24,638 nucleotides of DNA from a virus, in the IMG/VR virus record IMGVR_UViG_3300005253_000231, positions 1 through 24,638 of that record, one strand, 5' to 3'. The notes below the pieces were generated by a model, which searched no databases, was not told the origin of the DNA, and saw only the letters and a program-made list of their open reading frames with translations. Within the stretch, counting starts at the first letter, position 1, and each line of letters starts with the position of its first letter. A program made the position numbers and the translations under genes. Positions 5,556-24,638 of this stretch are shown one piece after another.

Positions 5556-5556
5556 T

Positions 5557-7549: not shown

Positions 7550-7565
7550 TGGGCTCCCTCACTTT

Positions 7566-7955: not shown

Positions 7956-7958
7956 CGA

Positions 7959-9569: not shown

Positions 9570-9808
9570 TATTCACTTTCCTCCAGCTCGGGAGTGGCTT
9601 CCATTACTTCTTCCGTAGGCTCAACTTCCGGAGCCCCAAGGAATCCGTCTCGGACCCGTTCCCTGTTCGCATACTCAAGGGGGATGCCCGTCCGACTGCA
9701 CCATAGAGTCAGTACTTCACCTTGTGAATGAATAATTTTGTTTGAGTTACTGGGATCCCGGATGTCCGCGAGCACAGTGAACTCAAGCTCTTGTGCGTCC
9801 TTTCTCAT
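9569..9808 (-). CDS. Small protein preceding the tail sheath (Mu gp38 position)
   Basis: This is about 79 residues from ATG 9808, chosen because GGAG lies 5 bases upstream. A TTG at 9823 directly after the previous stop would add five residues. The sequence has VLADIRDPSNSNKIIHSQGE, an RDP-x...G pattern reminiscent of the small DUF2635-type protein that sits before the sheath in Mu, then WCSRTGIPLEYANRERVRDG and an acidic C-terminus rich in glutamate (EVEPTEEVMEATPELEESE). The stop forms TAATG with the sheath start, so expression is coupled to the sheath. The function is unknown. A role in sheath assembly is inferred only from position. Confidence 0.72.
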   Translation of the reverse strand: MRKDAQELEFTVLADIRDPSNSNKIIHSQGEVLTLWCSRTGIPLEYANRERVRDGFLGAPEVEPTEEVMEATPELEESE

Positions 9809-9823
9809 TTCATCTCCATCCAA

Positions 9824-10921: not shown

Positions 10922-11382
10922 AGACCTTCATCCCTGAGCGCATCATCAAAATGCGATTGCGCTTTTGAACCGATTGAATCTACTGCATTTCCCAGCGTAG
11001 GGCGAGGAGCCATCTGACCACCTGGAGTCCCAAACTCAAGATCATCAACGTAATCCGGTGCAGCGTTACGCGCGCTCACTGAAACTCCGTACCCGAAATC
11101 TGCACCTTTAGAGCCATGAACTTTCCAACTCAATGAACGACGAGCCTTCCCTGTGAGGTCTGCGTGCGTTTCTCCTGGGGCAGAAGACTTATGTACTCTG
11201 CCTTTGAACCTATATAGACGACCGGACTTAGAACCATATAGAATCTCACGGTCAGTCGACCGCTTAAGATCCTGCATCAATGAGAACCACATCTGACGAA
11301 CTGCACGAGTAGACTTCGCACCAATAAGGTTAATCCCCTTCATGATGGTTTCGTTCGGGCTCTCTTTAACTTCAAACATCAT
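10918..11382 (-). CDS. Tail-completion/neck protein, HK97 gp10-like
   Basis: This small protein of the HK97 gp10-like family acts at the head-tail junction. The 154 residues begin with a helical region (NETIMKGINLIGAKSTRAVRQMW as two helices), a basic middle (YRFKGRVHKSSAPGETH) and then the diagnostic order: DLTGKARRSLSWKVHG, a VSVSARNAAPDYVDDLEFGT segment (about 100-119) and the family motif MAPRPTLGNAV (about 124-134), ending in a helix. The LEFGT and M-x-PRP-x-L motifs make the assignment secure. The start is one of two adjacent ATGs (11382 or 11379) overlapping the stop of the head-closure gene. The stop overlaps the start of the next gene by four bases. Confidence 0.88.
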   Translation of the reverse strand: MMFEVKESPNETIMKGINLIGAKSTRAVRQMWFSLMQDLKRSTDREILYGSKSGRLYRFKGRVHKSSAPGETHADLTGKARRSLSWKVHGSKGADFGYGVSVSARNAAPDYVDDLEFGTPGGQMAPRPTLGNAVDSIGSKAQSHFDDALRDEGL

Positions 11383-11768
11383 ATTCTTGCAGCCACGTTC
11401 TCTCTACTTCCACGCTTTGAACACACAAGCTTGAGGAACTCATTCTCTTCGTCAAGGTCTTCGGTATCAAGTATGTCAAGCAATGTTCCGTCACCAAGCT
11501 CAACCCACATCGTAGTGTTCACTGCGGATTCATAACGAATGTATACGGTATGAGTAATTGGAATATCACTTGTCACACCACCAAACATCTCAGTGCCAGA
11601 CCTTGAAACGACCTTCGCCCAGACATCAATATGATCAGAAAACGCTTCGTCAATATCAACATCACCAAATGAAGGCTCTGCAAGCTCACGATATCGAAGA
11701 CTAACGATCGTCTTCAAATCACCAATTGAAACTTTCCTTCTAGGGGAGTTGATCCTATTTCTAGACAT
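11379..11768 (-). CDS. Head-tail joining (head-closure) protein
   Basis: This is a head-closure protein of the phage head-tail joining family, which plugs the connector after packaging and provides the tail docking surface. The ~129 residues match the family pattern: IGDLKTIVSLRYRELAEPSF, HIDVWAKVVSRSGTEMFGG, THTVYIRYES, a short turn with LGDGTLLDILDTEDLDEENE, and EFLKLVCSKRGS near the end. I start at ATG 11768. A TTG one codon upstream (11771) is the alternative, and either start overlaps the previous stop by a few bases. The stop overlaps the next gene's ATG. Placement between adaptor and gp10-like genes is exactly where this protein is expected. Confidence 0.85.
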   Translation of the reverse strand: MSRNRINSPRRKVSIGDLKTIVSLRYRELAEPSFGDVDIDEAFSDHIDVWAKVVSRSGTEMFGGVTSDIPITHTVYIRYESAVNTTMWVELGDGTLLDILDTEDLDEENEFLKLVCSKRGSRENVAARI

Positions 11769-12309
11769 CAATGCAATTGTCCACGACTATGCCGCATAGT
11801 GAATCAGTGATATGAATGGCACCGAAAATAAATATCTTTCTTATCTCAATCTCTTTCCCGACCTTTAGCCCTGGATGATTCCAAGCAAGTATTCCAAGGA
11901 ACCCATACCTGGCACTACCAATCTTTGCTTCTCCGAACTCAAGCATATTGATTGAATTGCCGAGCCGAGTACGAACCCGCCTATCAATTCCGCATGTCGC
12001 AGTGATCGCGTTCGTTATCCCAACAGTGTTCGCAGTGGTGTCAATTGCGGTTATCGCTCCCCCGTCATGCATGATTGAATCGTCTTGCTCAATCTCACAT
12101 ATCTCACCGATAGTAAACTTCCCTGCGTCAGCAACACTCAAAGTTACGCCAGAAGAAACAACTGCTATCAACACAGATTCTTCGTTGGTGCTGTAGACCT
12201 TGAAACTACAGGTAGCTCCATCGTTGGTGAAGTCAATCGCGTTGTCCGTAAGGCGATCAACAGGTTTCTCCCATACGATGTTGCGACTTTTATTTATTGG
12301 AAATCCCAT
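11761..12309 (-). CDS. Unknown protein in the head-tail completion block
   Basis: This 182-residue protein, unrecognised as a whole, starts in a TAATG overlap with the stop of the Ig/repeat gene and has a good GAGGGA ribosome-binding site 5 bases upstream. The middle (about 45-105) looks like a beta module, VLIAVVSSGVTLSVADAGKF, then IGEICEIEQDD and ITAIDTTANTVGIT, a style common in small inserted domains of phage tail proteins. The C-terminal part (INMLEFGEAKIGSARYGFLG and HPGLKVGKEIEIRKIF) is also beta-rich. It lies between the connector/appendage genes and the head-tail joining protein, so a neck or collar role is plausible but unproven. Confidence 0.75.
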   Translation of the reverse strand: MGFPINKSRNIVWEKPVDRLTDNAIDFTNDGATCSFKVYSTNEESVLIAVVSSGVTLSVADAGKFTIGEICEIEQDDSIMHDGGAITAIDTTANTVGITNAITATCGIDRRVRTRLGNSINMLEFGEAKIGSARYGFLGILAWNHPGLKVGKEIEIRKIFIFGAIHITDSLCGIVVDNCIDV

Positions 12310-13619
12310 TAGCTTCCCTCACGCGAAAATGATTTCATGTCACCGCCTGTTGAATCCTCAATGTAGAATCTCCCTTCAACGGATAACTCTTCTTTAAGAG
12401 CTCCATCAATTGGACTCATTGAAGATAACTCACCCTCTACAGAATCAGAACTTGAAAGGCTCCCAGATACTGAAACATCTTCTGTGAGATTTCCTTCAAC
12501 TGAATCAGAAACTCTCAGCTTGCCTTCTATCGAATCAGCTGAGGAGAACTTCCCAGTAACTGACTCCTCACTATCCAAATCTCCCTCGACTGAATCAGAA
12601 GCAAATAGTCTCCCTTCCACAGCCTCGTGTTCTGAAAGGTGTCCATGAACTGCTTCCTCTGAGAACAAGTCACCATGAATGTCATGTGGGTCTCTCAGCG
12701 CAGGAATAAAACGGACATTGATTACATACGATTGAGTAGCAGAACCACCATGTTCGTCTGTAACTCTTACGGTTACTGCATGTTCTCCGAATTGTAATTC
12801 CGTTGGTGTCCAAGTGATTACGCCTGTCGCTTCAACAATGGTCATTCCAGCCGGGGCTACATCTAAGAAGAACCCAGTAATCTCTGACTCTATATCATCT
12901 GCAGTCGCATTGTAGACATACAGGACAAAAGTTTCACCTATCGTGATTGGAGTGCTCGTGAAAAATGGATCTGTAAACGCATCGACGTTGTACAAAAGTT
13001 CTGGAATAATAGTAAAGAAAAAAGTTTCTTTTGATGCGAATGCACGCTCTCGACCAGCGACTTCATCAAGGTATACTACAACCACATAGCATAGCGGAGA
13101 CTCTGCGTGTGCCGCCATATACGCTTTCGTTCCTGACAAAAGCCCAACCATCAATTGACCAAAGAAACCTTCGCCGTCGTATGGTTCAAAATGTCCTTGA
13201 TCAGCGTATGCTGGCATCGCTGCTGTTCCTAACCATGCGTCCCCGAAAAGAACCCCGTTGATAATGTTGTGCGAATCATCAGTGGGTCGCGGGTAATCAG
13301 GCCAGGTCGGATAATTAGCAAGTGAGAACGCACCAATCGAATCCCATAGTCCGTCAGGAACCAAAAGTCCTACCGCCATTGTCCATGTTTGATTCCATAC
13401 CCCAATATCAGCGTTAGTTCTAATCTTGAGTTTGATCCCGTTGAAAATACCAGCAGGGACAGCCCCTGGAGTAAATTTCAGATAGGCGAATTGGACAAAA
13501 TCGAGTTTAAACTGCCTACCTACCTCAAGCCGAACAGATTCCGGAACAGGAACACCGGTAGTAGTTCCAGCACTAGAATCATCTATGCCGAGAAGAGCTC
13601 TATGTATGAATATCGACAA
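12309..13619 (-). CDS. Virion surface protein candidate: unique N-domain, Ig-like domain and eleven decapeptide repeats
   Basis: The 436-residue protein has three regions. Residues 1-205 form an aromatic-rich domain I do not recognise (VWNQTWTMAVGLLVPDGLW..., DYPRPTDD...). Residues about 215-302 are an Ig-like domain of the bacterial putative-Ig type, with PAGMTIVEATGVITWTPTE and HAVTVRVTDEHGGSATQSY as signature strands. Residues 315-424 are eleven consecutive units of exactly ten residues, consensus [E/T/S/D/H]-G-x-[L/F]-x4-[S/A]-[V/I], with a twelfth degraded unit. Ig-like domains on phage heads and tails often bind host surface sugars, and the repeat block may form a stalk. The start is TTG 13619, with AAAGG about 9 bases upstream and no ATG nearby. 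It lies among head-tail connection genes, suggesting a neck or capsid appendage (inference). Confidence 0.82.
   Translation of the reverse strand: MSIFIHRALLGIDDSSAGTTTGVPVPESVRLEVGRQFKLDFVQFAYLKFTPGAVPAGIFNGIKLKIRTNADIGVWNQTWTMAVGLLVPDGLWDSIGAFSLANYPTWPDYPRPTDDSHNIINGVLFGDAWLGTAAMPAYADQGHFEPYDGEGFFGQLMVGLLSGTKAYMAAHAESPLCYVVVVYLDEVAGRERAFASKETFFFTIIPELLYNVDAFTDPFFTSTPITIGETFVLYVYNATADDIESEITGFFLDVAPAGMTIVEATGVITWTPTELQFGEHAVTVRVTDEHGGSATQSYVINVRFIPALRDPHDIHGDLFSEEAVHGHLSEHEAVEGRLFASDSVEGDLDSEESVTGKFSSADSIEGKLRVSDSVEGNLTEDVSVSGSLSSSDSVEGELSSMSPIDGALKEELSVEGRFYIEDSTGGDMKSFSREGS
12348..12677 (-). repeat. Coding tandem repeat, 11 units of 30 bases
   Basis: Codons 315-424 of the Ig/repeat protein form eleven in-frame 30-base units with no insertion or deletion, for example EGRLFASDSV, EGDLDSEESV, EGKLRVSDSV and SGSLSSSDSV. 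DNA copies are diverged at most positions, with recurring GATTCAGTTGAAGG-like cores at the unit boundary, so the period is held at protein level. Such constant-length units fit a repetitive beta structure. Confidence 0.85.
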
Positions 13620-14145
13620 CTCGTGAAACCTTTACTGGAACACCATGTTTATTCTTTTCAATTTTATGCGAACTCATTTCTTCGAATAAATCTTCAAGAT
13701 GCTCTCGATCATTTGCCTTCCATCTATGCTCTTCGGTATCCGGAAAATTCCATTGAGCCAACTCAATCTTATCACCGTTTAGCAGCACAATTTCATTCTC
13801 AATGAAGTGATTCATCATTCTGCCCCAGAGCCTTTGCTTTCTAGTTTCACCCCATGGAGCAAACCCCGGCATCGGCATAGCGATGAATCTATCTTTGACT
13901 TTCTGTAGCTCGTATATTGAAAAGATACCTTGAACCCTACCTTCATGATATACGACATAGGTTATAACATCGCTCCCGCTAGAGCGATGACACATAGTCA
14001 CTCCAGGTCGTTTATCTGCAATCTCCTTCAGAAGGAACTCTTGCATTCGAAAAATCGCTAGTCTCCGGTCTTCAGTGGGCGCTCTTGATATGTCAACGAG
14101 GCGACACTTCATCTCAGGAATGTCGAAAGCTGCTCCGCTAGACAC
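13600..14145 (-). CDS. Unknown protein, possibly GNAT-acetyltransferase-like, in the head-completion block
   Basis: I start this gene at GTG 14145, which has AGGA 6 bases upstream and overlaps the connector stop by 8 bases. An ATG further upstream (14232) would overlap the connector by 95 bases and has no ribosome-binding site, and ATG 14112 also lacks one. The product is about 181 residues. Visible order: a helix QEFLLKEIADKRPG, two strands around VITYVVYHEGRVQGIFSIYE, a proline/glycine-rich stretch MPMPGFAPWGETRKQRLWG followed by a helix MMNHFIENEI, then IELAQWNFPDTEEH and a charged helix, with a last strand VPVKVSRVVDI. This strand-helix order is reminiscent of GNAT acyltransferases, but I see no convincing acetyl-CoA loop, so the function is unknown. 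Confidence 0.7.
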   Translation of the reverse strand: MSSGAAFDIPEMKCRLVDISRAPTEDRRLAIFRMQEFLLKEIADKRPGVTMCHRSSGSDVITYVVYHEGRVQGIFSIYELQKVKDRFIAMPMPGFAPWGETRKQRLWGRMMNHFIENEIVLLNGDKIELAQWNFPDTEEHRWKANDREHLEDLFEEMSSHKIEKNKHGVPVKVSRVVDIHT

Positions 14146-14695
14146 GAGAAATCCTAAATTGATCGTAATGAATTGAAGCTCCAGAATCTTTGATGTCGTT
14201 CTTTCCAGGCTGGAAGTCCCCACGATTCTCATACAAGAATGCGATGTGCTTCAGCAACCCCAATTTCATTCCTCCAATGTACCTTTTCCCTGGATCAGTC
14301 GTAAACGTCGCCACAATCGCTCCGTTCCTGACATCGGTATCAGTAGGCCATTCCTGTGATTCCTTCAGGCGTACTTCTGACCATTGATGACCACGATTGA
14401 AATACCAAATTGATGTTGCTACGGCGACTGCTGAATCGTCGACAAGGTGTGTGATTGAAGTAACTGTGACAATCGGGGAACGATACAAGCATTGAAGTTC
14501 CACAAACTCGTCAACAGTTACTTTCCATGTACCGACGCTGAAGTCACGACTGGTGTATTTCTCACCAGCCGTGACAGCAGCTTTTAGATAGATCGCGAGC
14601 AACTCATTCTCAGCTCCAGAACGAACCTTCAGATGCTGCTTCACAACAGCAATATCGATCGGTGGATCACCCTCAGAGGTTCGTTCATAGAACAT
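14138..14695 (-). CDS. Head-tail connector (adaptor), HK97 gp6-like
   Basis: This adaptor protein binds beneath the portal as a ring and receives the head-closure proteins. The 185 residues show the family pattern: an early helix LKVRSGAENELLAIYLKAA (about 22-40), A-G-E-K-Y-T-S-R-D-F ending the helical pair, a beta section with YRSPIVTVTSITHL (about 72-85), VRNGAIVATFTTD, and a final helix LGLLKHIAFLYENRGD. It starts in a TAATG overlap with the preceding small gene, and its stop lies within the first codons of the next gene. Its position (after capsid, before closure proteins) agrees with the HK97-like plan. Length is slightly above the ~110-residue HK97 gp6, typical of related adaptors of 170-200 residues. 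Confidence 0.82.
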   Translation of the reverse strand: MFYERTSEGDPPIDIAVVKQHLKVRSGAENELLAIYLKAAVTAGEKYTSRDFSVGTWKVTVDEFVELQCLYRSPIVTVTSITHLVDDSAVAVATSIWYFNRGHQWSEVRLKESQEWPTDTDVRNGAIVATFTTDPGKRYIGGMKLGLLKHIAFLYENRGDFQPGKNDIKDSGASIHYDQFRISRV

Positions 14696-14982
14696 TACTT
14701 ATTGCCCCATCCGTTCTGATGCTTGCCTTCGCTCACCTTCTTATCGTCAGCGTTGTCATCAGAATTCGTTTCCGAGTTACTTTTTGATTCACGTTCTTTC
14801 AGCACCTGTTCTTCGCCGTCAGTCACATCTGAAGCCGCCCCCTTACGAAGCAATTCTTTCCCTACTTCTTCAGGGACGTTCATGATTGTTGATTCCTCAA
14901 CGTCTTGATTCGTCGCAATAAAATGCGGACATGCCACATTCGGGTTCGCCTCTCGGAAAGGTCTCAGCGGTATAACCTTCAT
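14695..14982 (-). CDS. Small acidic protein of unknown function between decoration protein and connector
   Basis: This 95-residue protein has two parts. The first 50 residues (KVIPLRPFREANPNVACPHF..., then MNVPEEVGKELLRKGAAS) resemble short phage head-region proteins that begin with a beta strand and end with a helix carrying an L-x-x-G-A pattern. The remaining 45 residues form a low-complexity acidic and serine/asparagine-rich tail (ETNSDDNADDKK) ending in GWGNK, probably disordered. It has a clear AAGGAG ribosome-binding site and ends in a TAATG overlap with the connector gene, so it belongs to the head-completion block. I cannot assign a function. A small head-tail linker or a chaperone-like accessory factor are possibilities. 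Confidence 0.72.
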   Translation of the reverse strand: MKVIPLRPFREANPNVACPHFIATNQDVEESTIMNVPEEVGKELLRKGAASDVTDGEEQVLKERESKSNSETNSDDNADDKKVSEGKHQNGWGNK

Positions 14983-14996
14983 TTGGTCTCCTTAAA

Positions 14997-15063
14997 TGTC
15001 GGAAGTGTGACGCCCTAACGTGCGGAGCCCAATCACGGTCAAACGGACGCCACACAACCGACA
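14997..15063 (-). other. Intergenic 16-bp interrupted stem-loop after the decoration gene
   Basis: Two 18-base arms (15063-15046 and 15014-14997) fold in the transcript as six Watson-Crick pairs (TGTCGG/CCGACA), a symmetric TT/TT bubble, then ten pairs of which two are G-U (GTGTGGCGTC/GGCGTCACAC), closing a 31-base loop. The 3' arm ends 5 bases before AAGGAGACC, the ribosome-binding site of the next gene. There is no T-run, so it is not a textbook terminator. A two-part stem with a small internal loop resembles RNase III processing signals in phage operons. That role is inferred. Confidence 0.7.
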
Positions 15064-15070
15064 CAAACTA

Positions 15071-15484
15071 TCAGGTAGTCGGGACTCGTTTCGGGTTGCC
15101 GAGAACGATGACCGCACCAAAGATCATGGAAGTGAAACCGACCGTCTCAATCGAACTGAGGCGGATCCATTCCTTCTTACCGATGTATCCCATGCGCTTC
15201 GTTGCACCGTCGTCAGTTGCAGCGAGCAACCTGAGGTCCAGCTCGACACCAATCAAATCCGCATCTGCGACAGCAGAGAACGTATCGGGTGAGCCGCTAC
15301 CGTCGTCATCAGCTTCATCAAGCTGAAAGTCCGCAGTACCAGTTCCAAGAACACCTGCATTCACAATCACTACCGCTGATTCGAAACCCTTCGTACTGAT
15401 TTCTGAACCGACATTGATCGCTGCATATACAGCAGGCTCAATTGCAGTGAATTCTTTCACTTGCGTCGTCAGATCATATTCCAT
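15071..15484 (-). CDS. Probable head decoration/stabilisation protein
   Basis: This 137-residue, beta-rich protein directly follows the capsid gene. It resembles by pattern a small phage family often found next to HK97-fold capsids: a KGFESAVVIVNAG strand-turn (about 32-44), a Q-x-DEADDDGSG acidic loop (about 54-64), a VADADLIG segment (about 72-79), RMGYIGKKEWIRL (about 97-109) and a late VLGNPKR (about 127-133). The likely role is binding the outer capsid surface, but no experimental homologue can be cited from sequence alone. It has its own strong AGGAAGAGG ribosome-binding site and is bracketed by RNA stems on both sides, as expected for a gene needed in high copy number. It could instead be a head-tail or internal virion protein. 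Confidence 0.85.
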   Translation of the reverse strand: MEYDLTTQVKEFTAIEPAVYAAINVGSEISTKGFESAVVIVNAGVLGTGTADFQLDEADDDGSGSPDTFSAVADADLIGVELDLRLLAATDDGATKRMGYIGKKEWIRLSSIETVGFTSMIFGAVIVLGNPKRVPTT

Positions 15485-15508
15485 CTTACGATTACCTCTT
15501 CCTTTGAT

Positions 15509-15529
15509 ATCGTTAGAAAATCTAACGAT
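15509..15529 (-). other. Perfect 9-bp hairpin just upstream of the decoration-gene ribosome-binding site
   Basis: The inverted repeat ATCGTTAGA/TCTAACGAT is separated by only three bases and has no mismatches. On the transcript it ends 6 bases before an AAAGGAAGAGG ribosome-binding region and about 25 bases before the ATG of the decoration-like gene. It could stabilise a processed 5' end or keep the ribosome-binding site unpaired. An operator-like DNA site is a possible alternative for a perfect palindrome of this kind, but no promoter is visible next to it. Confidence 0.65.
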
Positions 15530-15538
15530 GATAAATGT

Positions 15539-15594
15539 GGCCGGTCAGCTAACATGACCTGAGTAACTGACCGGCCTGGTTCACCCCCTCAGGT
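15539..15594 (-). other. Capsid 3' RNA hairpin with potential pseudoknot
   Basis: Three bases after the capsid TGA the transcript contains ACCTGAG (15594-15588). Next comes a perfect 10-bp stem GGCCGGTCAG/CTGACCGGCC (15576-15567 with 15548-15539) around an 18-base loop. The loop holds CTCAGGT (15563-15557), the exact complement of the upstream ACCTGAG, so an H-type pseudoknot or an alternative hairpin is possible. The stem is followed by ACATTTATC rather than a run of T, so a classical intrinsic terminator is not well supported. Roles could be transcript 3'-end protection, partial termination or processing after the highly expressed capsid gene. Confidence 0.7.
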
Positions 15595-15596
15595 GA

Positions 15597-16847
15597 TCAT
15601 GCGGCGCACTTGAGAAGCTTGATCGCTTCGTGGAGCACGATGATGCCTGTGTTCCAGCGCGCCATCGTGAAGATCACGATGCCGTCACCAGCACGAGTAA
15701 ACTCGTCACGGATGATGCTGAAGCCAGTACGATCGATGATGGTGTAACCACGTGCGAAATCACCGAATGCGACGGCATAGGCGTTCGCCGCTTCATCGGG
15801 CATCGAGTTCGCAATGATGTACGGGAACCCATTGATCGTGTTCGGGGTCGCACCGTTCATACCGGGCTGCCAAAGGAACGCACCCTGCTCGTCGCCAGCA
15901 GTGATGGCATCCTCACGCTTCCCACGAAGTGAGGCGAGGACCCGGCGATTGAGAACATAGACGGGGTTGTACCCAGTCTTCAATTCGCCAGTCAGCTTGA
16001 TCATGTCAGAAACAGAAACCAAAGCCGAAGTGTCACCGGCCAAAGCATCCGCCTGAAGGGTTGCATCCTGTACGATACCGACAGGCTGCTTCACTCCATT
16101 ACCAACGATGAACCCGTTACCTTCACCGAAGCCGAAAGCTTCGCTGGAGTCCAGGGTAATTTCAGCCTCCATGTTGAACACGCTGTCCATCAGCATGTCC
16201 TTCGTGATCGGAGTCTGGAACGTCTGGCGATACGGAGTCACCGTGACGTTCTCGTAGGTCGAAGCACTTTCCGCAGCAGAGCCCGTCTCGCCTTCGTACG
16301 TCGCCGTCGGGATCGTGCTACGAATCGACATTTCCATCGACTTGTTGGAGATGGTACGAACGCGTGCGACAGAGCGGAATGGATCAATTTCTGTGATCTT
16401 CTTCGTGATCACCGGATCCATCTCGGAGGTCGTCAGAACACCACCATCAACGGCGGAGTCAGTCCGGAGCAAAGCCTTCTGCTCCATCGAAATTCCCTCG
16501 GTACCTTCACGGCACCAATCCGTCATGGCCTTGTACTCTTCCGTCGTACTGAATGCTTCGGGCGGAAGACCTGCGTTCTTGTTCCGAGCGAATGTCGCTT
16601 CCAGCTCATCAACACGCTTGTTGATTTCGCCATTCTCGACGCCCTTCTTCTCGAGCTCTTCGGTCAGGGACTTGAGCTCGAGCGACTGCTTCGTAATTTC
16701 CGAATTCGCAGCCGTGACCTCAGCGCTCTTCGTTTCCCAACCATCGAGAACGACATTCAGTCGCTCTACCTTCTCAGGGTCCATGCGGCTCGAGGCGACT
16801 TCCTTCTTCAGCTCCTCGAACGCTGCACCAATTTCATGCGGTTCCAT
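15597..16847 (-). CDS. Major capsid protein, HK97 fold
   Basis: This is the shell-forming protein. The 416 residues divide into an N-terminal scaffold-like delta domain (about 1-100, heptad-rich helix including LELKSLTEELEKKGVENGE) and an HK97-fold body beginning near LLRTDSAVDGGVLTTSEM. Body features typical of the family are DPVITKKITEIDPFRSVARV, the TYEGETGSA and YRQTFQTPITKDMLMDS segments (E-loop/P-domain region), FIVGNGVKQPVGIV and the late INGFPYIIANSMPDEAA followed by VAFGDFARGYTIIDR. Cleavage by the upstream protease probably falls between the helix and the body (about 95-130), but I cannot place it. A strong AGAAGGAAA ribosome-binding site precedes the ATG. Secondary structures in the next intergenic region suggest separate control of message abundance downstream. 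Confidence 0.95.
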   Translation of the reverse strand: MEPHEIGAAFEELKKEVASSRMDPEKVERLNVVLDGWETKSAEVTAANSEITKQSLELKSLTEELEKKGVENGEINKRVDELEATFARNKNAGLPPEAFSTTEEYKAMTDWCREGTEGISMEQKALLRTDSAVDGGVLTTSEMDPVITKKITEIDPFRSVARVRTISNKSMEMSIRSTIPTATYEGETGSAAESASTYENVTVTPYRQTFQTPITKDMLMDSVFNMEAEITLDSSEAFGFGEGNGFIVGNGVKQPVGIVQDATLQADALAGDTSALVSVSDMIKLTGELKTGYNPVYVLNRRVLASLRGKREDAITAGDEQGAFLWQPGMNGATPNTINGFPYIIANSMPDEAANAYAVAFGDFARGYTIIDRTGFSIIRDEFTRAGDGIVIFTMARWNTGIIVLHEAIKLLKCAA

Positions 16848-16891
16848 TTTTGAGTTTCCTTCTTTCGAGTTAATAGGTCAGTCGCCCTGCC

Positions 16892-17908
16892 CTAAAGTAC
16901 CTCACGGATTTCTGAAAATCCCTTTTCCAGAGCATCCATCAAGGCTTTCGTTTCGTCCACCTCTTCCTTTGCAGGCTTCAGTGGCTCACGACTTCGAACC
17001 AAGTATCTCACGGCTGCCTTGCTAAACAAGCCAGTCGCTCGAAGCCTTTGCTCCAAGTCGCCGTCTTCCCAACTCTTCACTTCGTCAAGCCCATAGAAAT
17101 GAGCCGTCTCGAATGGAGAGTCAATATTCATCTTGGCGAGATATCGTTCAGCCTGAACAATCAACGCCTTCGTTTCTTCGCTCTCGTCCAGCTCCTTGAG
17201 TTCAAGTGATGCGTCTCTGACTGCTTGAGGAACAGCCACGAGCTTGCCGTCAAGAACATCGCCGATAAGAAATCGCTCGTCACCGCAAAGAAAAGCATGA
17301 GCTCCATTGCCAATGCGGAAAGGCATCTCGTCAATCCGTTTCCTGGCCTCAGCAGACTTGAACTCAAAGTCTGCGGGTGCGATATCAAGTTCGATGAAAT
17401 CATGAACTAGCCCCTTCACCTCTGTGATTGGCGCGTGCCTGTTCTTCGGCTCATCTACAATACTACCTTCGCCGATAATCGCTTTGTAGATATCACGAGT
17501 CGCCGCATTGACTCGATCTCTAACCGTACGGAAACCAATAGAGAAGTCAGTCAACACCCCCTGCTTCACCATCGAGTACAGCTCGCGACCACGCTTCGTC
17601 TCGAGGTTCACCTCGCCCTCAACCCACAGACCGATGGCGTCTTCCTTGACCTTGTCGATGGGGAATCCACCAACGGATTCTCCATGATTGTCACAGAGTC
17701 GAATCTGGCGATCGCCACGTTGCTTATGTTCAAGGATCGACTCCTTGAACGCACCAGGCATGAATCGGTCTGGCTTCCCATATCGACCGGGCTGGATATC
17801 GGGCTTCCAAGAAGCAAGATAACCACGAACGATCCCGACAGGAACACCATTACGAGTAACCTGAGCCCCGGTCTCAAGTACATCAGATGAAAACTTATAC
17901 TCAATCAT
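16892..17908 (-). CDS. Prohead protease, HK97 family (S78/U35-like), with C-terminal extension
   Basis: This serine protease is encapsidated in the prohead and removes the capsid delta domain during maturation. Key segments are IVRGYLASW, then FMPGAFKESI, the histidine motif LCDNHGESVGGF (His about 75) and VKQGVLTDFSIGFR with the likely nucleophile Ser about 123, spaced as in HK97 gp4-type enzymes. The protein is long (about 338 residues). After the protease core comes FLIGDVLDGKLVAVPQAV and a helical segment to MNIDSPF, a module I recall as recurring in longer phage proteases, then a charged helical tail. I chose ATG 17908 because AGGA sits 8 bases upstream. ATG 17914 is only 2 bases from it, and ATG 17944 lacks a Shine-Dalgarno and overlaps the previous gene. 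It precedes the capsid gene, as usual. Confidence 0.88.
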   Translation of the reverse strand: MIEYKFSSDVLETGAQVTRNGVPVGIVRGYLASWKPDIQPGRYGKPDRFMPGAFKESILEHKQRGDRQIRLCDNHGESVGGFPIDKVKEDAIGLWVEGEVNLETKRGRELYSMVKQGVLTDFSIGFRTVRDRVNAATRDIYKAIIGEGSIVDEPKNRHAPITEVKGLVHDFIELDIAPADFEFKSAEARKRIDEMPFRIGNGAHAFLCGDERFLIGDVLDGKLVAVPQAVRDASLELKELDESEETKALIVQAERYLAKMNIDSPFETAHFYGLDEVKSWEDGDLEQRLRATGLFSKAAVRYLVRSREPLKPAKEEVDETKALMDALEKGFSEIREVL

Positions 17909-17918
17909 ATTCATAATC

Positions 17919-18665
17919 CTAACGTGCCTCTGTGATAAATCCATCGAATGAAGATATTAAATCAATGTTCGTAGTACTTCCGATTAATTGCACCTTCAAT
18001 ATGCCTGGACCATGGAAAACCTTTGGCGGATTATACTCCCGTATCCACCGCTCGTCTGTAGTCACTTCGAAACTTTCCTTATTCGTCCATGCGGTACCGA
18101 ACACGGCGTTGACCGCTGGATCTTCCATCCACAGAACTTTCCCAGTCGCGCGCAACGCCACTCCAGCAGTCTTGATCAACGCCGCCCTGAGTTGATTGAT
18201 ATGCAAGATCATACGACTTGAGATCCCAAAGATCGTCATTTGAGTTTGACTATTTCCAGCGATTATTGCTGCGGTAATCGTAGAGTCTGGTGCGGCAGCA
18301 GTCGCAGTGATATGACCCACATTGAATCCAGTCGCACCCCAAACCAATCCTTTCATCCTGTAGATCATCACATACTCGTTCACAGTATTGACTGGAGTTA
18401 CTCCGTTAAGGATAACCGTTTCATATGTGTCAAAACGCGAGTCCCAAGATGTCAATCCTCGAATGAAAACTTCCTGTAACCCTAGGCCCGGAGAATCATC
18501 AGAAGGACTAGTAGAAACGAGAGAATGAATACGCGCCGCAGTCGGAGCGACTCAAACAATTGTTCCGCCTAGCGCAATGATGGCGACTGAAGCCCCATCA
18601 TGAACGTCAGTTGGAGCTGCGTCAAGATTATCAGTCTCTCCAAACTTGTTGATCGACCTATTCAT
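17919..18665 (-). CDS. Virion (probable head) structural protein interrupted by an in-frame TGA at codon 38
   Basis: From an ATG that overlaps the MuF stop (ATGA) the frame reads 37 residues (MNRSINKFGETDNLD..., ending LGGTIV), meets TGA at 18554-18552, and continues without another stop for 210 residues (VAPTAARIHSLVSTS..., ending FDGFITEAR). The only standard start after the TGA is TTG at 18455, which would discard 32 residues that look like conserved family sequence. The whole resembles a phage virion protein family I know by pattern: an N-terminus like NRSINKFGE, a central APTAAR-h-HSLVSTS stretch, NGTTPVNT-like repeats (here NGVTPVNT) and a GP-x-h-h-K-h-Q C-terminal strand. A tryptophan would fit the TGA position well, and TGG is one base away. 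Possibilities are readthrough, a nonsense mutation, two separate products, or a sequencing error. TGA is a normal stop elsewhere in this operon. Confidence 0.75.
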
Positions 18666-19828
18666 TTCTTTTTAATCTTGTTGATGATCCTATTAGGCGT
18701 TTGCGAAAGTAACGATTGGTGCCTCTTCTTCAATCTCTCAAGCTGGGTCTGTAAAGCTCTTTGACCACCAGTGTCTTTTCGCTTGAACGCTGAGGAGAAC
18801 TGTTTTTCAACACTGTCGATCTTCCGTTGTGAATTCGCCAGTTCCTTATCAAGTTTGTCAATTGGAACCTTACGAGTCTGAAATCCTTTCTTTATACCCT
18901 TCTTAGTTCGCCCTTTCGGTCGAGGAAAAGTGAAGCCCGGCGGCAATGGAACTGTGATGGTTGCGCCGACCGTTTCTGCTCCCTCTGGAGCGATTGCACC
19001 AAGGTCCTCCCTCTTGACCCGTCCCTTCCTGATCTTCGCGATCGCAACTCGATCATAGTAGGCAGAGCAACGACATCGCTGGATGTTGCCCTGCGAAGCT
19101 CCGAGGGAGAGATCCCCTGGAAAAAGTAGCTTTTCTCCGCTGACGTCAAATGGCTTATCCGGAAGACGAGCTTGTCCATCTGCTCTGAGATGATTGAATG
19201 CTCCAACTCTAACACGACTGTCTCCAAGTGAGTCCCATATCTTGATCTTCTTTTCGCCTGCTGCCTTTAGCTCCAGATCGGTTTCGTCACCGAGAAGGAC
19301 GGCTGCTTCCACGAGCTTCGCAAATTCCGCTGACCATTGCGTCTCATAGATAGAGATTCCGTGAGAGCGACCTGCAAGCATACGTTCAAGGTTTGCACCT
19401 GCAACTCCAGCAACCTGTCCACGTGAAGCAGTGGGGTGATCTCGTTGCGCACGTCCGATCGCTTGCTCAATGTTCTTTTGAGTCGTGCGAAGAATTCTCT
19501 GACTCTGATCATCTACCCGTTCCCCGTAATGGAAGCTCAACGTGCGATTTACGATCGCCGATTCTTCTCTCGTTATCCCTACCGCTTTCGGAAGCACACC
19601 CCGAATATCGTCCTTGAAAATGTTTCCGACTTTCCGATAATGCGGAGCGAGCATCTGTGGGATATCGTCTGTCCCTGTGACATCAAGTACCGATCCGCTT
19701 TCTCTATACCTTGCTTCAACCGAACGCACCACCTTCGTATTGAATCTCACCAACTTAGTATGAAGTTGAAGTTCAGCTGTCCGTTTCCTCCGAACGTCGA
19801 TCTGAGTTTGTCTTCGTGGCGCGGCCAT
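18662..19828 (-). CDS. MuF-type minor head protein
   Basis: This is the portal-associated minor capsid protein of the Mu gpF/SPP1 gp7 type, thought to help assemble proheads or be packaged with DNA. The 388-residue protein has a helical N-terminal half (about 1-190). The MuF C-terminal domain then shows KIWDSLGDSRVR (about 196-207), H213, LLFPGD (about 234-239) and the terminal NIQRCRCSAYY (about 248-258), in the order W, D-x-R-x-R, H, PGD, CRC that defines the family. The last 130 residues are a basic, proline-containing linker and a predicted coiled coil (about 310-375) ending KIKKK, which is an extension beyond the core domain. It follows the paralogue triplet by three bases, and its TGA overlaps the ATG of the next gene, which fixes that start. 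Confidence 0.9.
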   Translation of the reverse strand: MAAPRRQTQIDVRRKRTAELQLHTKLVRFNTKVVRSVEARYRESGSVLDVTGTDDIPQMLAPHYRKVGNIFKDDIRGVLPKAVGITREESAIVNRTLSFHYGERVDDQSQRILRTTQKNIEQAIGRAQRDHPTASRGQVAGVAGANLERMLAGRSHGISIYETQWSAEFAKLVEAAVLLGDETDLELKAAGEKKIKIWDSLGDSRVRVGAFNHLRADGQARLPDKPFDVSGEKLLFPGDLSLGASQGNIQRCRCSAYYDRVAIAKIRKGRVKREDLGAIAPEGAETVGATITVPLPPGFTFPRPKGRTKKGIKKGFQTRKVPIDKLDKELANSQRKIDSVEKQFSSAFKRKDTGGQRALQTQLERLKKRHQSLLSQTPNRIINKIKKK

Positions 19829-19831
19829 ATT

Positions 19832-20269
19832 TCACAGAAGCTCGTCAATGCCAAAGCTAACCTTAACGTCAGCCCCGTTGGTAGTTTTCCACATACTGAA
19901 GAATGCTCCAGGTGGAACAAAAATCCCACGAAGAGTGGCTACACCACGACTTTGATTTGCTCGCATAAAAAAGTGCTTAGGGCTTGTCGGGGCATTAATA
20001 ATCAATAGATGCCCTGGTCGAATAATTGTCTGTAGCGCGACTCCGGGCTCCGAAATTACGAGTGGCGTAATCGCTGCGTCCGGTTCGTCCATGTCAGGAG
20101 AAGCAGAGACATACCAAGCGTAATCGAACGAATCCATATCAAGCGTATGGATCATTACTCCACGGGAGCTAGCATGTGACGCGATGTCCAGACCTGCAAG
20201 CCGACCAACAATCCCAGTAAGATCAATCCCGCCAAAAATACGAATAAGGTTTCCGAAAGGGCGATTCAT
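19832..20269 (-). CDS. Unknown virion-region protein, paralogue C of a tandem triplet
   Basis: At 145 residues, this is the last gene of the triplet. It starts RPFGNLIRIF, carries SSRGVMIHTLDMD, then ALQTIIRPGH, FMRANQSRG, an LRGIFVPPGAFFSM segment and an ending SFGIDELL. The LQTIIR-x-G, R-x-NQ-x-R, PG and S-x-x-IDE positions line up with paralogue B. The first eleven residues also match paralogue A. Beta-rich composition with an FVPPG-type turn is common in virion proteins, but I know no family for it. It overlaps paralogue B by ATGA and stops three bases before the MuF-like gene, keeping it in the head-assembly block. Alternatives are a capsid vertex or portal-proximal decoration protein, or an injected internal protein. 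The sequence does not distinguish these. Confidence 0.83.
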   Translation of the reverse strand: MNRPFGNLIRIFGGIDLTGIVGRLAGLDIASHASSRGVMIHTLDMDSFDYAWYVSASPDMDEPDAAITPLVISEPGVALQTIIRPGHLLIINAPTSPKHFFMRANQSRGVATLRGIFVPPGAFFSMWKTTNGADVKVSFGIDELL

Positions 20270-20712
20270 GAGGCAACCTCGTCAATAATGGCTGAATAAG
20301 ACATTGCGGAATTTACGCTGCTGCGCAAAAACGTCAATGTCCATCCTGGTGCAATGAATAACGGGACCAAAGACCCATCAAACACCCTGCCTTGATTTGA
20401 GCGAATAATATAGTCACTTGCCCCAGGCAATGTCCCAGCAGAAATTCTACCTTGACGAATAATCGTTTGCAACGTATGGCCCGGAAGCGAAACGAACACA
20501 GGAGTGATAACAGTAATGTTCGCATTAATCAATGGAGAAGCATTAGCCGTTAGTGTCATTCCCAACGAAATGTCAGCATTATCGAACCGACTTACGAAGA
20601 GACCCTTTCCGTCAACATGGGCCTCAATTGAACATGCAGAAGTCTCTGCGATAGTTGCAGGCTCCTCAGAACTGAAAAAGAATCTCGCAAGATTTCCAAG
20701 AGGGTAAGACAT
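20266..20712 (-). CDS. Unknown virion-region protein, paralogue B of a tandem triplet
   Basis: At 148 residues, this is the middle gene of the triplet. It has YPLGNLARFF at the N-terminus, a G-K-G version of the RG segment (VDGKGLFVSRFDN), and then a central block shared closely with paralogue C: HTLQTIIRQGR, P-G-A-S-D, IIRSNQGRV, followed by PLFIAPGWTLTF and an ending S-x-x-IDEVA. The alternation of hydrophobic residues and absence of long helices suggest a beta-sandwich. Its stop overlaps the start of paralogue C by ATGA. All three copies have intact frames and a diverged sequence, so this looks like an old duplication retained under selection rather than a recent amplification. The function is unknown. 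Location between portal and minor head protein suggests a structural or head-assembly role. Confidence 0.83.
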   Translation of the reverse strand: MSYPLGNLARFFFSSEEPATIAETSACSIEAHVDGKGLFVSRFDNADISLGMTLTANASPLINANITVITPVFVSLPGHTLQTIIRQGRISAGTLPGASDYIIRSNQGRVFDGSLVPLFIAPGWTLTFLRSSVNSAMSYSAIIDEVAS

Positions 20713-20713
20713 G

Positions 20714-21169
20714 TTAATCCTTCGTCAATACGTCTATGATAAAACTACCTTCAAGCTCGTCAGTGACAGTAGTTTTAATGAACATGAGATAATACGTCGG
20801 CGGAACATACATCGGTGTGCGCGGACCCATTATAGAAGGGGAGATTGATGTATTATTATGCCTAAAAGGGCGATCACCTTCAAGTCTTGTATATCCACCG
20901 ATGACACGACCATGACCAAATATTCCAGCAGTATCGAAATTAGGATCTGACTTAAACTTCGGTGAGCCACTGATCGTGTTAGTAAGAAATGCACTGCTCG
21001 TTAGCTTAACGACTACGTCTACGATATCGGTGAAATCGTAATGATAAACAAGTATCCCACGCGAATCGCTCGGAGCAAAGAAAGAAATTCCAGCACTGGC
21101 TCCGACAGCATTATTATCAATAGAAGCCAACATAATTCGTACAGCAGAACCAAAAGGGCGAAGATTCAT
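20714..21169 (-). CDS. Unknown virion-region protein, paralogue A of a tandem triplet
   Basis: This 151-residue protein of unknown function is the most diverged of three consecutive related genes lying between portal and MuF. Features shared with the other two copies are the N-terminal P-x-G-x-x-x-R motif (RPFGSAVRIML), an S-R-G segment followed by an aspartate (SDSRGILVYHYDF), a central hxGRhxxG element (GHGRVIGG), an R-x-N pair (FRHNNTS) and an aromatic, proline-rich end (YVPPTYYLMF) before IIDVLTKD. Composition suggests a beta-rich soluble protein. There is no signal peptide or membrane segment. It starts in a TAATG overlap with the portal stop and ends one base before paralogue B, so the three genes form a coupled block. 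Position argues for a virion or assembly role (head decoration, portal-associated or internal protein), but I recognise no named family. Confidence 0.82.
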   Translation of the reverse strand: MNLRPFGSAVRIMLASIDNNAVGASAGISFFAPSDSRGILVYHYDFTDIVDVVVKLTSSAFLTNTISGSPKFKSDPNFDTAGIFGHGRVIGGYTRLEGDRPFRHNNTSISPSIMGPRTPMYVPPTYYLMFIKTTVTDELEGSFIIDVLTKD

Positions 21170-22746
21170 TATTCATCACCTCCAAATAGAGGTGCTGGTG
21201 GAAGAGGTTTCGTGGGTTCCGGTGGATCGCCGATGATATCAGAAGCTTCGTTCATACTCATACCGAAAGCTTTCGACATGATCAGAACTGCACTCTGCTT
21301 CGAAAGATCGCCAGAGCCAACGGAAGTGACTAGCCCAATCATGGAAGTAACTTGCGCGCCGTTCAATAGGGCTGATGGATCCCCTAGCGATTCGGCGTCA
21401 TCGTCATCAACCTCCTCGATGGGGTCTGGTGTAGTCTCAGTGAGATCAAATAGATCTGCGTCTTCGTCAAAGACGTCTGAACCATCAGGGACCATTGAAC
21501 TTTGGACATAGAGAATATCACCACCCTCTGTGTCCTCACGACCAAGGATCCCACGCAACTCATTGCGAGATTCGATGCCGATTTTCTTACGAATCTCGAT
21601 CTCTCCAAGAGTCCGCATCTTTAATGTCGTAATCTGCTCTTGATCAACTGTTAGTCGCCATTCCCCCATGTCCATCCCGTATCGCGGGAATAGGAACTCA
21701 GCGAGCCCACCTAACAAGACCTTAGCGAGAGGAAGAACTCCATCGTCATAAAGCGCTAGGATTGCGACTTCATAATTATTCATCGTGCTCGCTGAAAGCG
21801 AAACTAGAGGAAGTGGTACTCCGTAAACGAGAGCAAGCGTCTGCTTAATCATTTCGTGGAGGTTAGCGAAATCCATCTCCTGATTCGTCGCGCCAGCCTG
21901 AATGATCTGGAGCTTACTTCCTGCGCTGACCCCTACAGTACCAGCCCTCGCTGCTCCCCCGTATTGCTGCTTCGTACGGAGCTTCGTCTCTCTGAAATCG
22001 TCTTCATCCATATCTTCTTCAAAGGCGAAATGAAGTGACATGCGACCGCCCTTCTCAAGGATGGATACGTTATGCTCTGTCCCGAGAATCGCTTGACGAA
22101 TGTCACGAGAAGCAGACTTCAAAAGCGACTGACCACGAATCCTGGAACCCCGGTCCGTAGCATAGTCGCGGATCATCTTGAACTCACGAACATTGTCTCG
22201 ATCAAAGAAACGTAGTTGGCGCTCAATGACCTGCTGCGAGTAAACGTCGTTGAAGAAAAGGCCGCCAACTTGATAGATCGAAGGTAATCCGTTTCCACCC
22301 TCAACCGGAGAAACATCCGATGGACTAATCGGGCTCAACTCCAACGGGGGGCGTGTCGGATTGCCAGAAGCGACCATAGTCGTTTCGCCTGTGATGAGGT
22401 AGTGATTCGCCATCGTCTTGAGAAACAACTGCTGTGAGAAACCTGGTGAGGGATTTCGCATGAGATCAAGGAGAGGATGGTCGCGAATAACCTTCCCTTC
22501 CTTGATGTTGAAGAGCACTGGCTCAATGCAAGAGAACGGTTTCGAAATCTTGTTTATTGGAATGCTGACGAACGAAGACTGGTCATAGAGACCCATCGCA
22601 GCCTGAGCTGAATGGGCGTTCGTATATCCATACTTTATAAAGTCAGACGCTCCCTGACTCAGGTTCACATCGTATGATTTCTGCTCTTGGACTGGGATAG
22701 AACCAATCTCTAAATCATTCGAGAACCATTCGGCGATTGGATTCAT
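21169..22746 (-). CDS. Portal protein, HK97-type
   Basis: The dodecameric portal sits at the unique capsid vertex, binds the terminase during packaging and the connectors afterwards. The 525-residue length fits a portal with a C-terminal extension. Visible family features are HPLLDLMRNPSPGFS (about 90-104) followed by a helix and YLITGETTM (about 116-124), the VREFKMIRDYA region that precedes RGQSLLKSA, and KQTLALVYGVPLPLVS in the clip/stem half. An acidic stretch (about 425-455, including EEVDDDDAES) precedes a recurring portal tail module beginning LNGAQVTSMIGLV, and the C-terminus is proline-rich. The ATG overlaps the stop of the Acb2-like gene as ATGA and I see no good Shine-Dalgarno ahead of it, so translation probably depends on coupling to that small gene. 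The stop overlaps the next gene as TAATG. Confidence 0.93.
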   Translation of the reverse strand: MNPIAEWFSNDLEIGSIPVQEQKSYDVNLSQGASDFIKYGYTNAHSAQAAMGLYDQSSFVSIPINKISKPFSCIEPVLFNIKEGKVIRDHPLLDLMRNPSPGFSQQLFLKTMANHYLITGETTMVASGNPTRPPLELSPISPSDVSPVEGGNGLPSIYQVGGLFFNDVYSQQVIERQLRFFDRDNVREFKMIRDYATDRGSRIRGQSLLKSASRDIRQAILGTEHNVSILEKGGRMSLHFAFEEDMDEDDFRETKLRTKQQYGGAARAGTVGVSAGSKLQIIQAGATNQEMDFANLHEMIKQTLALVYGVPLPLVSLSASTMNNYEVAILALYDDGVLPLAKVLLGGLAEFLFPRYGMDMGEWRLTVDQEQITTLKMRTLGEIEIRKKIGIESRNELRGILGREDTEGGDILYVQSSMVPDGSDVFDEDADLFDLTETTPDPIEEVDDDDAESLGDPSALLNGAQVTSMIGLVTSVGSGDLSKQSAVLIMSKAFGMSMNEASDIIGDPPEPTKPLPPAPLFGGDE

Positions 22747-22955
22747 CGCGTCACTAGATTTCTAGAGATAGCAGAAGTAGCCCACATCTTCGCTTCTTCA
22801 AGTTTCGTCATCATAATAGACTTCTCCCTACAATCAGGCATGAGCCTATTCAAATCTTCCGCAAGCTCAATGAACTTGTCGGTAATATCTTCCTTGCGAG
22901 CGGCACCTTCGCGAGTCGTTTCATAATACGTAAATCGATTCTCAACGTCGTTCAT
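22743..22955 (-). CDS. acb2: Acb2/Tad1-hairpin family protein, probable anti-CBASS/anti-Thoeris cyclic-nucleotide sponge
   Basis: This 70-residue protein matches the small helical phage family now called the Acb2/Tad1 hairpin domain. The N-terminal NRFTYY element (about 6-11) corresponds to the RF-x-Y segment of the family, followed by a first helix (about 20-38) and the diagnostic segment PDCREKSIMMTKLEEAKMWA (about 40-59), ending SAISRN. Known members (Acb2 of Pseudomonas phages, Vs.4 of T4) bind cyclic di- and trinucleotide signals and stop CBASS effectors from being activated. The related Tad1 captures the Thoeris signal. By inference this protein sequesters a host immune second messenger in the cytoplasm as a small oligomer. 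Its ATG overlaps the terminase stop, its stop overlaps the portal start, and GGAG lies 7 bases upstream. It is therefore co-expressed with packaging genes. The family call is strong. Ligand and target immunity are not readable from sequence. Confidence 0.88.
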   Translation of the reverse strand: MNDVENRFTYYETTREGAARKEDITDKFIELAEDLNRLMPDCREKSIMMTKLEEAKMWATSAISRNLVTR

Positions 22956-24457
22956 ATCTGGGCTCCAAGTTTCGCAGACAAGAACATATGCGCTTGAGAG
23001 GATGCGTCGACCATATCCTTGAACTTCCCTCTTGGGAATCTAGTATGTTCCTTGATATACGCTGCAGTCCACGGTCTTCGCAGAACTACGACGTCTCCAT
23101 TCTCTACGGTCGTTGCCCACGGTTCTGCACGAGTGACCTTATCGCCTGTCACTCGATCAATCTTGACTTTGAATCCACGGAGGTTCCGAACGGTAGCCTG
23201 AGCAGATTCTTTCCCGCCTGAGCCTGGCTCCTGCTCAATCGAAACCCATACTTTTCTTCCATCACACTCGGCGTTCTTCTTGATTCGCTTTTCTCGCTTA
23301 GGCGCTTCCTCTTGAAACGCATCGCAATCAATAACAGCAACCATCCCATTCTGGAGATTCGCCATCAACACTCCAGCGGTTCGAGCTCCTCCGCCAACGG
23401 TGCCAGCTTTATCCCATGCTCTCCATGCCTTCTTGATCGGCGAAGGTAGAACGTCTACGACCAAGAAGCTTTCTTTCTTGAACATCCCTCCAGCACGAGC
23501 TTGCGGTTGCTGCTGGAACTGGGAGGACCATGCGTAATCGGTTATCTCTCCCTGAATCTCCACTACTGCTCTCGCGCTGAACCGTTCGGGGCAGAGGAGC
23601 TCGCCTTCCACTGTGCGAGGATCCTTGAAACCAAGTGATGTTCCTTCGTCTACCACCTCGTCTTCTGCATTCTCAGAGCCTGTCGCGACAACCTTCAATG
23701 AGCACTTATGAGCGAAGTCAACGATGCACTTCGGGTCATACTCCATCGCAAGGTTCAGGTGTTCATAACCCATCTCTGTCAGGGCTTCGTTCGTGGCATC
23801 ATCAAAGTGAACACGCTGCATGATGTAGATAATCGCACCAGTCTCGCGATCGTTCAAACGAGTGGGAAGCACCTCTCGGCAATACTCAATCGTTTCCTTC
23901 CGCCTCGGTTCTGATTCGCCATCTGCTACGTTATGCGGATCATCAAATGCTATGATGTCTCCGCCTTCCCCTGTTGCCGCCCCTCTGGTTGAGATCGCCA
24001 ATCGATAACCTGAGTCTGTGTTCTCATAACGCTGCTTTTGGTTTTGGTCGGACGCTAGTTTGATATCAGTCCCCCAGTAACCTTGCATCGATGAGAAGTA
24101 ATCGCTCTCAAGGATCTGCCTTGACTTTCTCGCGTCTCGTGTGGAGAGTGGTTGATGGTAGCTTCCACAAAGCCACCGGAGGGACGGCTTCTCAATCCAT
24201 GACCACACTGGAGCCATCACAGTTGAGACAGTAGACTTGCTCATTCTCGGAGGTTCGTTGATAACTAGTCGTCGAAGTTCCCCTTTGATTGCTGCTTCAA
24301 TGTGCTCACACTTCGCATCAATGTGCCATCCGCCAATAAACTTCGTAGCGGGCTCAATGACGTGCCAATGATTCTTAACGAAATGGCGGAGCTTCTTCTT
24401 AGAAAGCTCCGCCTTAATCGCGAACTGGTCACTGACAATGTCAAGTGCTGCGCTCAA
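22952..24457 (-). CDS. terL: Terminase large subunit (DNA-packaging ATPase and nuclease)
   Basis: This is the motor that docks on the portal, pumps DNA into the prohead with ATP and cuts the concatemer. The 501-residue protein has both expected domains. In the N-terminal ATPase, a Walker A-like loop EPPRMSKST lies at about 68-76, Walker B with the catalytic acid IIAFDDPHN at about 168-176, and a QRVHFDD segment near 214. In the C-terminal RNase H-like nuclease, candidate metal-binding acids are D349 (RAWDKAG), the IEQEPGSGGK segment near 407-416 and D481/D484 (KDMVDASSQAH). It resembles the family of large terminases whose C-terminus carries an AWD...TAGVLM motif. The chosen start is TTG at 24457, with AGGA 9 bases upstream. 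No ATG in this frame is better placed. The stop overlaps the next start as ATGA. The Walker A loop lacks the usual glycine before lysine (MSK instead of HGK). Confidence 0.95.
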   Translation of the reverse strand: MSAALDIVSDQFAIKAELSKKKLRHFVKNHWHVIEPATKFIGGWHIDAKCEHIEAAIKGELRRLVINEPPRMSKSTVSTVMAPVWSWIEKPSLRWLCGSYHQPLSTRDARKSRQILESDYFSSMQGYWGTDIKLASDQNQKQRYENTDSGYRLAISTRGAATGEGGDIIAFDDPHNVADGESEPRRKETIEYCREVLPTRLNDRETGAIIYIMQRVHFDDATNEALTEMGYEHLNLAMEYDPKCIVDFAHKCSLKVVATGSENAEDEVVDEGTSLGFKDPRTVEGELLCPERFSARAVVEIQGEITDYAWSSQFQQQPQARAGGMFKKESFLVVDVLPSPIKKAWRAWDKAGTVGGGARTAGVLMANLQNGMVAVIDCDAFQEEAPKREKRIKKNAECDGRKVWVSIEQEPGSGGKESAQATVRNLRGFKVKIDRVTGDKVTRAEPWATTVENGDVVVLRRPWTAAYIKEHTRFPRGKFKDMVDASSQAHMFLSAKLGAQI

Positions 24458-24461
24458 TGAG

Positions 24462-24638
24462 CTAAATCCTATCGATTGTCTTTCCAGAGTCAGACATCAG
24501 AAAACAAGCTCTTTCTGGGACGATCCACCACTCAATCTCTTTCCCGCGAGTAATGGCAAGTACATTTCCAACGCCTTGTTTCGGTTGACCCTTGAAATCA
24601 GTCATAATGAAACAATTCGGCCACTTTGAATATCCATT
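24462..24638 (-). CDS. C-terminal part of an unrecognised protein upstream of the terminase (runs off the right edge)
   Basis: The frame is open from the last base of the window to a TAG at 24462-24464, giving 58 residues. It has no stop inside the window, and the true start lies outside it. Visible stretches include KWPNCFIMTDFKGQPKQG, then GKEIEWWIVPERACF and a C-terminus SGKTIDRI. I recognise no family. The stop lies 4 bases before the terminase start, and the sequence just ahead of it (AGGA of ATAGGATTTAG) supplies the terminase ribosome-binding site, so the two genes appear to be translated from one message. Genes just upstream of a large terminase are often small terminases or small early proteins, but nothing in this fragment (no helix-turn-helix visible) lets me assign that. 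Coding status is inferred from the continuous frame and tight spacing. Confidence 0.65.
   Translation of the reverse strand, partial: NGYSKWPNCFIMTDFKGQPKQGVGNVLAITRGKEIEWWIVPERACFLMSDSGKTIDRI

Follow-up and report, generated by a model that had tools for sequence, protein, structure and literature searches.

How does a small protein that resembles a phage counter-defence sponge come to be encoded between the large terminase and portal genes of a virus, and what might it do there? The window considered here is an entire virus record of 24,638 bases, in which an earlier sequence-only reading had picked out a 70-residue protein of the Acb2/Tad1 hairpin family. Very probably, the gene encodes an Acb2-type sponge that sequesters a nucleotide messenger of host defence and is made alongside virion parts. 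It is a divergent copy of a known family in an unusual, apparently late-expressed position, and its interest lies in that placement, in its divergent residues and in a sister phage with two copies.

The gene and its operon

All 30 called genes of the window lie on one strand, and those with a PHROG annotation encode head or contractile-tail components. The features of the region are as follows, the candidate sponge being called the sponge gene from here on.

22952..24457, minus strand: large terminase gene terL, with a TTG start (PF17289, E 5.6e-11; phrog_38, E 1.5e-70)
22956..22977, minus strand: ribosome-binding region of the sponge gene, within the 3' end of terL, with TTGGAGCCCAGAT before the ATG (from duplex energy)
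22743..22955, minus strand: gene for the candidate Acb2-type sponge, 70 aa (PF24729, Acb2_Tad1_hairpin; from the ORF, the profile and the predicted fold)
21169..22746, minus strand: portal gene, with a weak Shine-Dalgarno sequence of its own (PF04860, E 1.4e-30; phrog_12)
341..21169, minus strand: remainder of the same-strand head and contractile-tail block, some of its genes unannotated (from PHROG annotation)

The ORF, which the sequence-only reading had given without a strand, is present at 22743-22955 on the minus strand, with 70 codons, an ATG start and a TGA stop. Both motifs that it had singled out are found, RFTYY near the N terminus (residues 7-11) and the diagnostic stretch PDCREKSIMMTKLEEAKMWA (residues 40-59), and Pfam and PHROG profiles confirm the identities of the terminase and portal genes on either side. 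The upstream terL and the downstream portal gene each share the four bases ATGA with the sponge gene. These overlaps, also part of the earlier reading, are real but not distinctive: four-base overlaps occur at 8 of the 29 junctions between the called genes, so they are ordinary in this operon and were rejected as special evidence. The block at 341..21169 encodes a MuF-type head protein, a head maturation protease, the major head protein, adaptors, sheath, tape measure and baseplate, and marks the region as late.

Three successive small genes of 145, 148 and 151 aa (19832-21169, minus strand) lie between the portal gene and the MuF-type gene. Of these, the first and second each match one and the same pair of small genes in the corresponding place of the sister contig L016, and for this reason look like tandem paralogues. 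None of the three has a Pfam match, and the first has one short, weak PHROG match.

Family membership

Assignment to the family rests mainly on sequence, and the predicted fold agrees with it. Residues 10-65 align to positions 2-58 of the 58 in the Pfam profile PF24729 (Acb2/Tad1, hairpin domain), scoring 49.2 bits where the curated cut-off is 27 (E 6.1e-13). This is far beyond chance and upholds the family assignment of the sequence-only reading. PHROG_1454, whose function is not annotated, matches the protein as well (E 9.7e-18). Relatives are numerous: tblastn against 50,697 phage records gave 191 matches at E<=1e-3, rising to 360 at E<=0.1; none reaches 60% identity, and they come mainly from Mycobacterium, Paenibacillus and Gordonia phages. 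A pattern search of IMG/VR returned at least 599 matching stretches, at least 450 of which encode relatives (80 were retained). Among genome contigs, the clade alignment A4 found no relative, whereas 45 loci came up with the broader alignment A2. Viral contigs scanned with a single protein, either the hairpin or the portal, yielded no relative, no NCBIfam profile came near a cut-off for the sponge protein, and PADLOC, run on 10 window proteins, returned no match for it. Published passages already carry Acb2 annotations for gp57 of the actinobacteriophage Statler (PMC13348362) and for the cluster E phages Xandras and BigBubba (PMC11953737).

To which branch of the family does the protein belong? 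A single-sequence search against solved structures matched Acb2 homolog 43 (E 0.0018) and gave a non-significant E of 0.94 for Tad1; with a 56-sequence profile the values were 2e-10 and 0.0018, respectively. T4 Vs.4 was not significant in the same profile search (E 0.14), and a profile comparison against T4 Vs.4 alone gave a probability of 72% and an E of 3.3e-5. Homolog 43 (9ptq), which may come from the preprint of Hadary and others (2025), is the best match by both profile and fold. It is ~30% identical to the sponge protein and has REKS..TKLEEA in common with it, but its N-terminal segment reads FDTH where the sponge has FTYY. Tad1 (7uav, 8kbb-8kbh) has the hairpin region in common with the sponge (RE..A.T..EEA.MW), but carries an additional antiparallel beta-sheet domain N-terminal to it, as described in a passage of PMC12043709, and this domain is missing from the 70-aa protein. 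Tad1 proper was rejected on the lack of an N-terminal beta domain in the model and on the single-sequence value given above. The joint label "Acb2/Tad1" of the sequence-only reading thus holds for an Acb2-type stand-alone hairpin and falls for Tad1.

Predicted fold

The AlphaFold2 single-chain model, built from the 56-sequence alignment, has a mean pLDDT of 94.6, with helices at residues 3-7, 15-38 and 43-65 and no strand. The Acb2 protomer is described in passages of two papers as one short N-terminal helix followed by two long antiparallel helices (PMC12043709, PMC10419184), and the model agrees with this architecture: a short N-terminal helix and a two-helix hairpin, with no added domain. 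The hairpin, whose absence the sequence-only reading had named as grounds against itself, is therefore present in a confident model whose top solved matches are Acb2 proteins. The best of these by Z is 9ptq, "Acb2 homolog 43 in complex with 3'cADPR" (Z 9.0, 1.3 A over 63 residues). A second aligner, run over 86 chains, gave Z 7.3 for T4 Vs.4, 6.6 and 6.5 for Acb2 (8h2x and 8h2j) and at most 5.3 for Tad1; because helical pairs without known relation reach Z 6.4 in the same set, fold alone is weak evidence for two-helix proteins. Foldseek placed T4 Vs.4 and 9ptq in its top rows with probability 1.00, and every E-value was 0.001 or above.

Like the sponge protein, T4 Vs.4 (7uq2) and Acb2 (8h2j/8h2x) are stand-alone hairpins with a short N-terminal helix. 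T4 Vs.4 differs in having an insertion between the helices; the sponge is shorter and lacks it.

Residues of the ligand pocket

Can the protein be expected to bind a messenger? Residues Y8, T68 and F82 of T4 Vs.4 align to Y10, T50 and S64 of the sponge, so that the first two have equivalents and the third does not. According to passages in two studies, the T4 mutant Y8A no longer binds cyclic dinucleotides and F82 makes a stacking contact with the ligand (PMC12657218), and T68M in T4 Acb2 is said to lower binding (PMC12657230). Both residues with equivalents are conserved among the aligned relatives: 55 of 56 have Y or F in the Y10 column, and all 56 have T in the T50 column. R43, E44, T50 and R65 are invariant in this alignment. 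The C-terminal stacking aromatic is known for T4 and does not define the family. Its column holds A in 54 of the 56 relatives and in homolog 43, and S64 in the sponge.

S64 is one of six near-invariant columns at which the sponge departs from its relatives, the others being Y11 (H in 52/56), K21 (Y or H in 53/56), C42 (S or G in 55/56), T60 (N in 51/56) and S61 (A in 55/56). The positions that Y8 and F82 occupy in the T4 protein suggest that several of these residues would flank the cyclic-dinucleotide pocket. By homology, the sponge protein likely binds a nucleotide messenger; the substitution of S64 for F82 and the departures at 11, 21, 42, 60 and 61 mean that binding of the canonical kind is not assured.

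There are two ways to read these departures other than as variation within a canonical sponge. The gene may be a decaying remnant whose product has lost messenger binding, as might be expected with several near-invariant residues altered and a Pfam score of 49 bits, where 44 of 52 matches score roughly 70-90. We consider decay quite improbable, because the reading frame is unbroken and overlaps the genes on either side, R43, E44, T50, L52, E53, W58 and R65 are all kept, and a likely orthologue with Y11 and K21 remains intact in a phage with only 72% identity in terL. Alternatively, specificity may have moved from CBASS cyclic dinucleotides to a Thoeris signal (e.g., 3'cADPR) or to an undescribed signal. 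This is a serious possibility, though not the one we would expect. The best solved relative, 9ptq, is a complex with 3'cADPR, but its identity to the sponge is only ~30% and it has no Y10-Y11 pair. Further points in favour of a shift come from the sister phage.

The sister phage

The contig L016 is the nearest sister among the matches listed, with a terL 72% and a portal 59% identical to those of the window. Between these two genes (L016 2563-2999) it has two tandem hairpin genes, hp1 and hp2, joined by ATGA, with further small ORFs separating terL from hp1 and hp2 from the portal gene. On PF24729 they score 33.0 and 62.6 bits, respectively, both above the cut-off of 27. The window protein is identical to hp1 at 33 of 70 positions and to hp2 at 27 of 70, and hp1 and hp2 are identical to each other at 28 of 72. 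Y11 and K21 are common to the window protein and hp1, and hp2 has H at both positions. From these comparisons, hp1 is likely the orthologue of the window gene, and our reading of hp2 is that it would be a canonical paralogue absent from the window, which has only the divergent type. A shift of specificity would fit the sharing of Y11 and K21 by the window protein and hp1, the further changes at 60, 61 and 64 in the window protein, and the retention in L016 of a canonical copy next to a divergent one.

The Gordonia phage ChisanaKitsune (L186) has three hairpin-family genes, gp11, gp18 and gp20, around its terminase and portal genes (1164-1370, 4014-4220 and 7037-7252). Their scores are 31.1 bits for gp11, 21.2 for gp18, which is below the Pfam cut-off of 27, and 73.1 for gp20.

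Genomic placement of relatives

Is the slot between terminase and portal a sign of what the protein does? Neighbourhoods were surveyed at 125 loci, 80 from IMG/VR (of at least 450 relatives there) and 45 from genome contigs, and the hairpin was seen in 123. It lies between terL and portal in 6 of the 123 (L016, L020, L041, L046, L050 and L051) and within 700 bases of a recognised head or packaging gene in 19 (with at least two redundant pairs, L024/L025 and L044/L141); these counts are rough and probably low, as the small query set came partly from the same loci and many loci are short. The best PHROG terminase families are 38 for the window (and for L016 through its 72% identity), 9 for L041 and L046, 2 for L020 and L051, and 10250 for L050. 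L020 also matches 10250, and the window, L020 and L051 also match 979, so these families are different but not all unrelated.

Named phages show both kinds of placement. Gp11, gp18 and gp20 of ChisanaKitsune and gp29 of Quhwah, all deposited as hypothetical proteins, are encoded next to terminase, portal, protease and major capsid genes or in between them, and their genes overlap their neighbours briefly, as the sponge gene does. In other named phages relatives lie elsewhere, among them Balomoji gp102, deposited as a "cyclic nucleotide inhibitor". An open-access literature search found no paper on acb2 in packaging or late regions. In two mycobacteriophage loci (L002 922-1509 and L014 522-1079), hairpin domains occur in proteins of ~185-195 aa encoded just upstream of terminase genes.

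The recurrence of this slot raises the possibility that the protein is an accessory of packaging or head assembly, such as an adaptor between terminase and portal, in which the hairpin fold has been put to a new use and whose position serves virion assembly. The slot is occupied here and at the six loci named above, and on 10 contigs of at least 20 kb with a PF04860 portal, three hairpin genes are no more than 1 kb away from the portal gene where 0.40 would be expected (p ~0.006), in a post hoc test on contigs that are possibly related and include one portal below the Pfam cut-off. We nevertheless regard such a role as very improbable. Relatives elsewhere adjoin helicase, SSB, endolysin, protease, MuF and anti-repressor genes. 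In T4, vs.4 is flanked by regB and denV and is not part of a structural operon, whereas the sponge gene is inside one. No structural gene was detected beside the hairpin in L015, the closest relative by identity among the matches listed (49%). In a set of 40 terL-related loci, which includes many fragments, the hairpin occurs only in L095, which is the same contig as L016; L096, a 35%-identical relative, has terL, a 79-aa ORF and a 757-aa ORF, with no hairpin match. Since relatives occupy scattered slots, the sponge gene is probably accessory counter-defence cargo rather than part of the packaging machinery, and a structural or packaging role was judged unlikely on these grounds. The hairpin gene looks like accessory cargo that has landed recurrently in packaging modules.

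Expression and translational coupling

The sequence-only reading had proposed synthesis at late-gene levels and dependence of portal translation on the sponge gene. The position of the gene suggests expression at the level of late genes. A promoter of its own was rejected, as no sigma-70-like site was found upstream on its strand. In 20500-24638, a search for sigma-70-like sites gave three, against a shuffle mean of 4.5; two are on the minus strand, both downstream of the sponge gene, and none is on that strand upstream of it, where the record ends soon after terL. Terminator-like sites in the same region number 3, with 3.8 in shuffles and thus no excess. One terminator-like stem-loop of 11 pairs (7 G-C) lies near the 5' end of terL (24385-24413, minus strand).

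The ribosome-binding duplex of the sponge gene has an energy of -5.6 kcal/mol, rank 15 of the 30 window genes, and that of the portal gene -2.3 kcal/mol, rank 25 of 30, with five genes weaker. From the sequence, it is plausible that translation of the portal gene is coupled to that of the sponge gene.

Functional implications

What would a sponge do in this position? By homology, hairpin protomers would assemble as a hexamer, which would bind and sequester a CBASS cyclic oligonucleotide or a Thoeris cyclic ADP-ribose, and with the messenger captured the defence effector would stay inactive. Because the gene lies inside a terminase-portal operon with four-base overlaps, the sponge is probably produced with terminase and portal and may shield the assembly phase.

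There are several possible consequences. First, the supply of a sponge during virion assembly would coincide with the time when late CBASS triggers may appear. According to passages of PMC10419184, a missense change in the major capsid gene lets phages that lack acb2 evade CBASS, a hint of a late trigger, although the wild-type capsid gene alone induced no CBASS toxicity; the benefit of supply during assembly is accordingly something we infer. Second, the time of sponge synthesis should matter because sponges, which guard phages against CBASS and Thoeris, also trigger Panoptes, as passages of PMC12657218 and PMC12657230 describe; speculatively, late supply could delay this sponge-sensing defence. 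A sponge in a packaging operon, found with several PHROG terminase families, makes the question of timing directly testable. Third, the window and L016 might together represent a branch of Acb2 with shifted specificity and late timing that is embedded in the packaging operon, with the tandem pair of L016 co-translated. We hold this combined reading to be doubtful. If it were true, the canonical and divergent hairpins of L016 could assemble into mixed hexamers or, between them, capture two signals. The tandem is a natural experiment on ligand specificity.

A further locus, L063, has a canonical Acb2-type hairpin gene (4992-5195) ~1.3 kb from the gene for a 127-aa hairpin-containing protein (3268-3648), which is Tad1-sized and scores 23.8 bits, below the cut-off.
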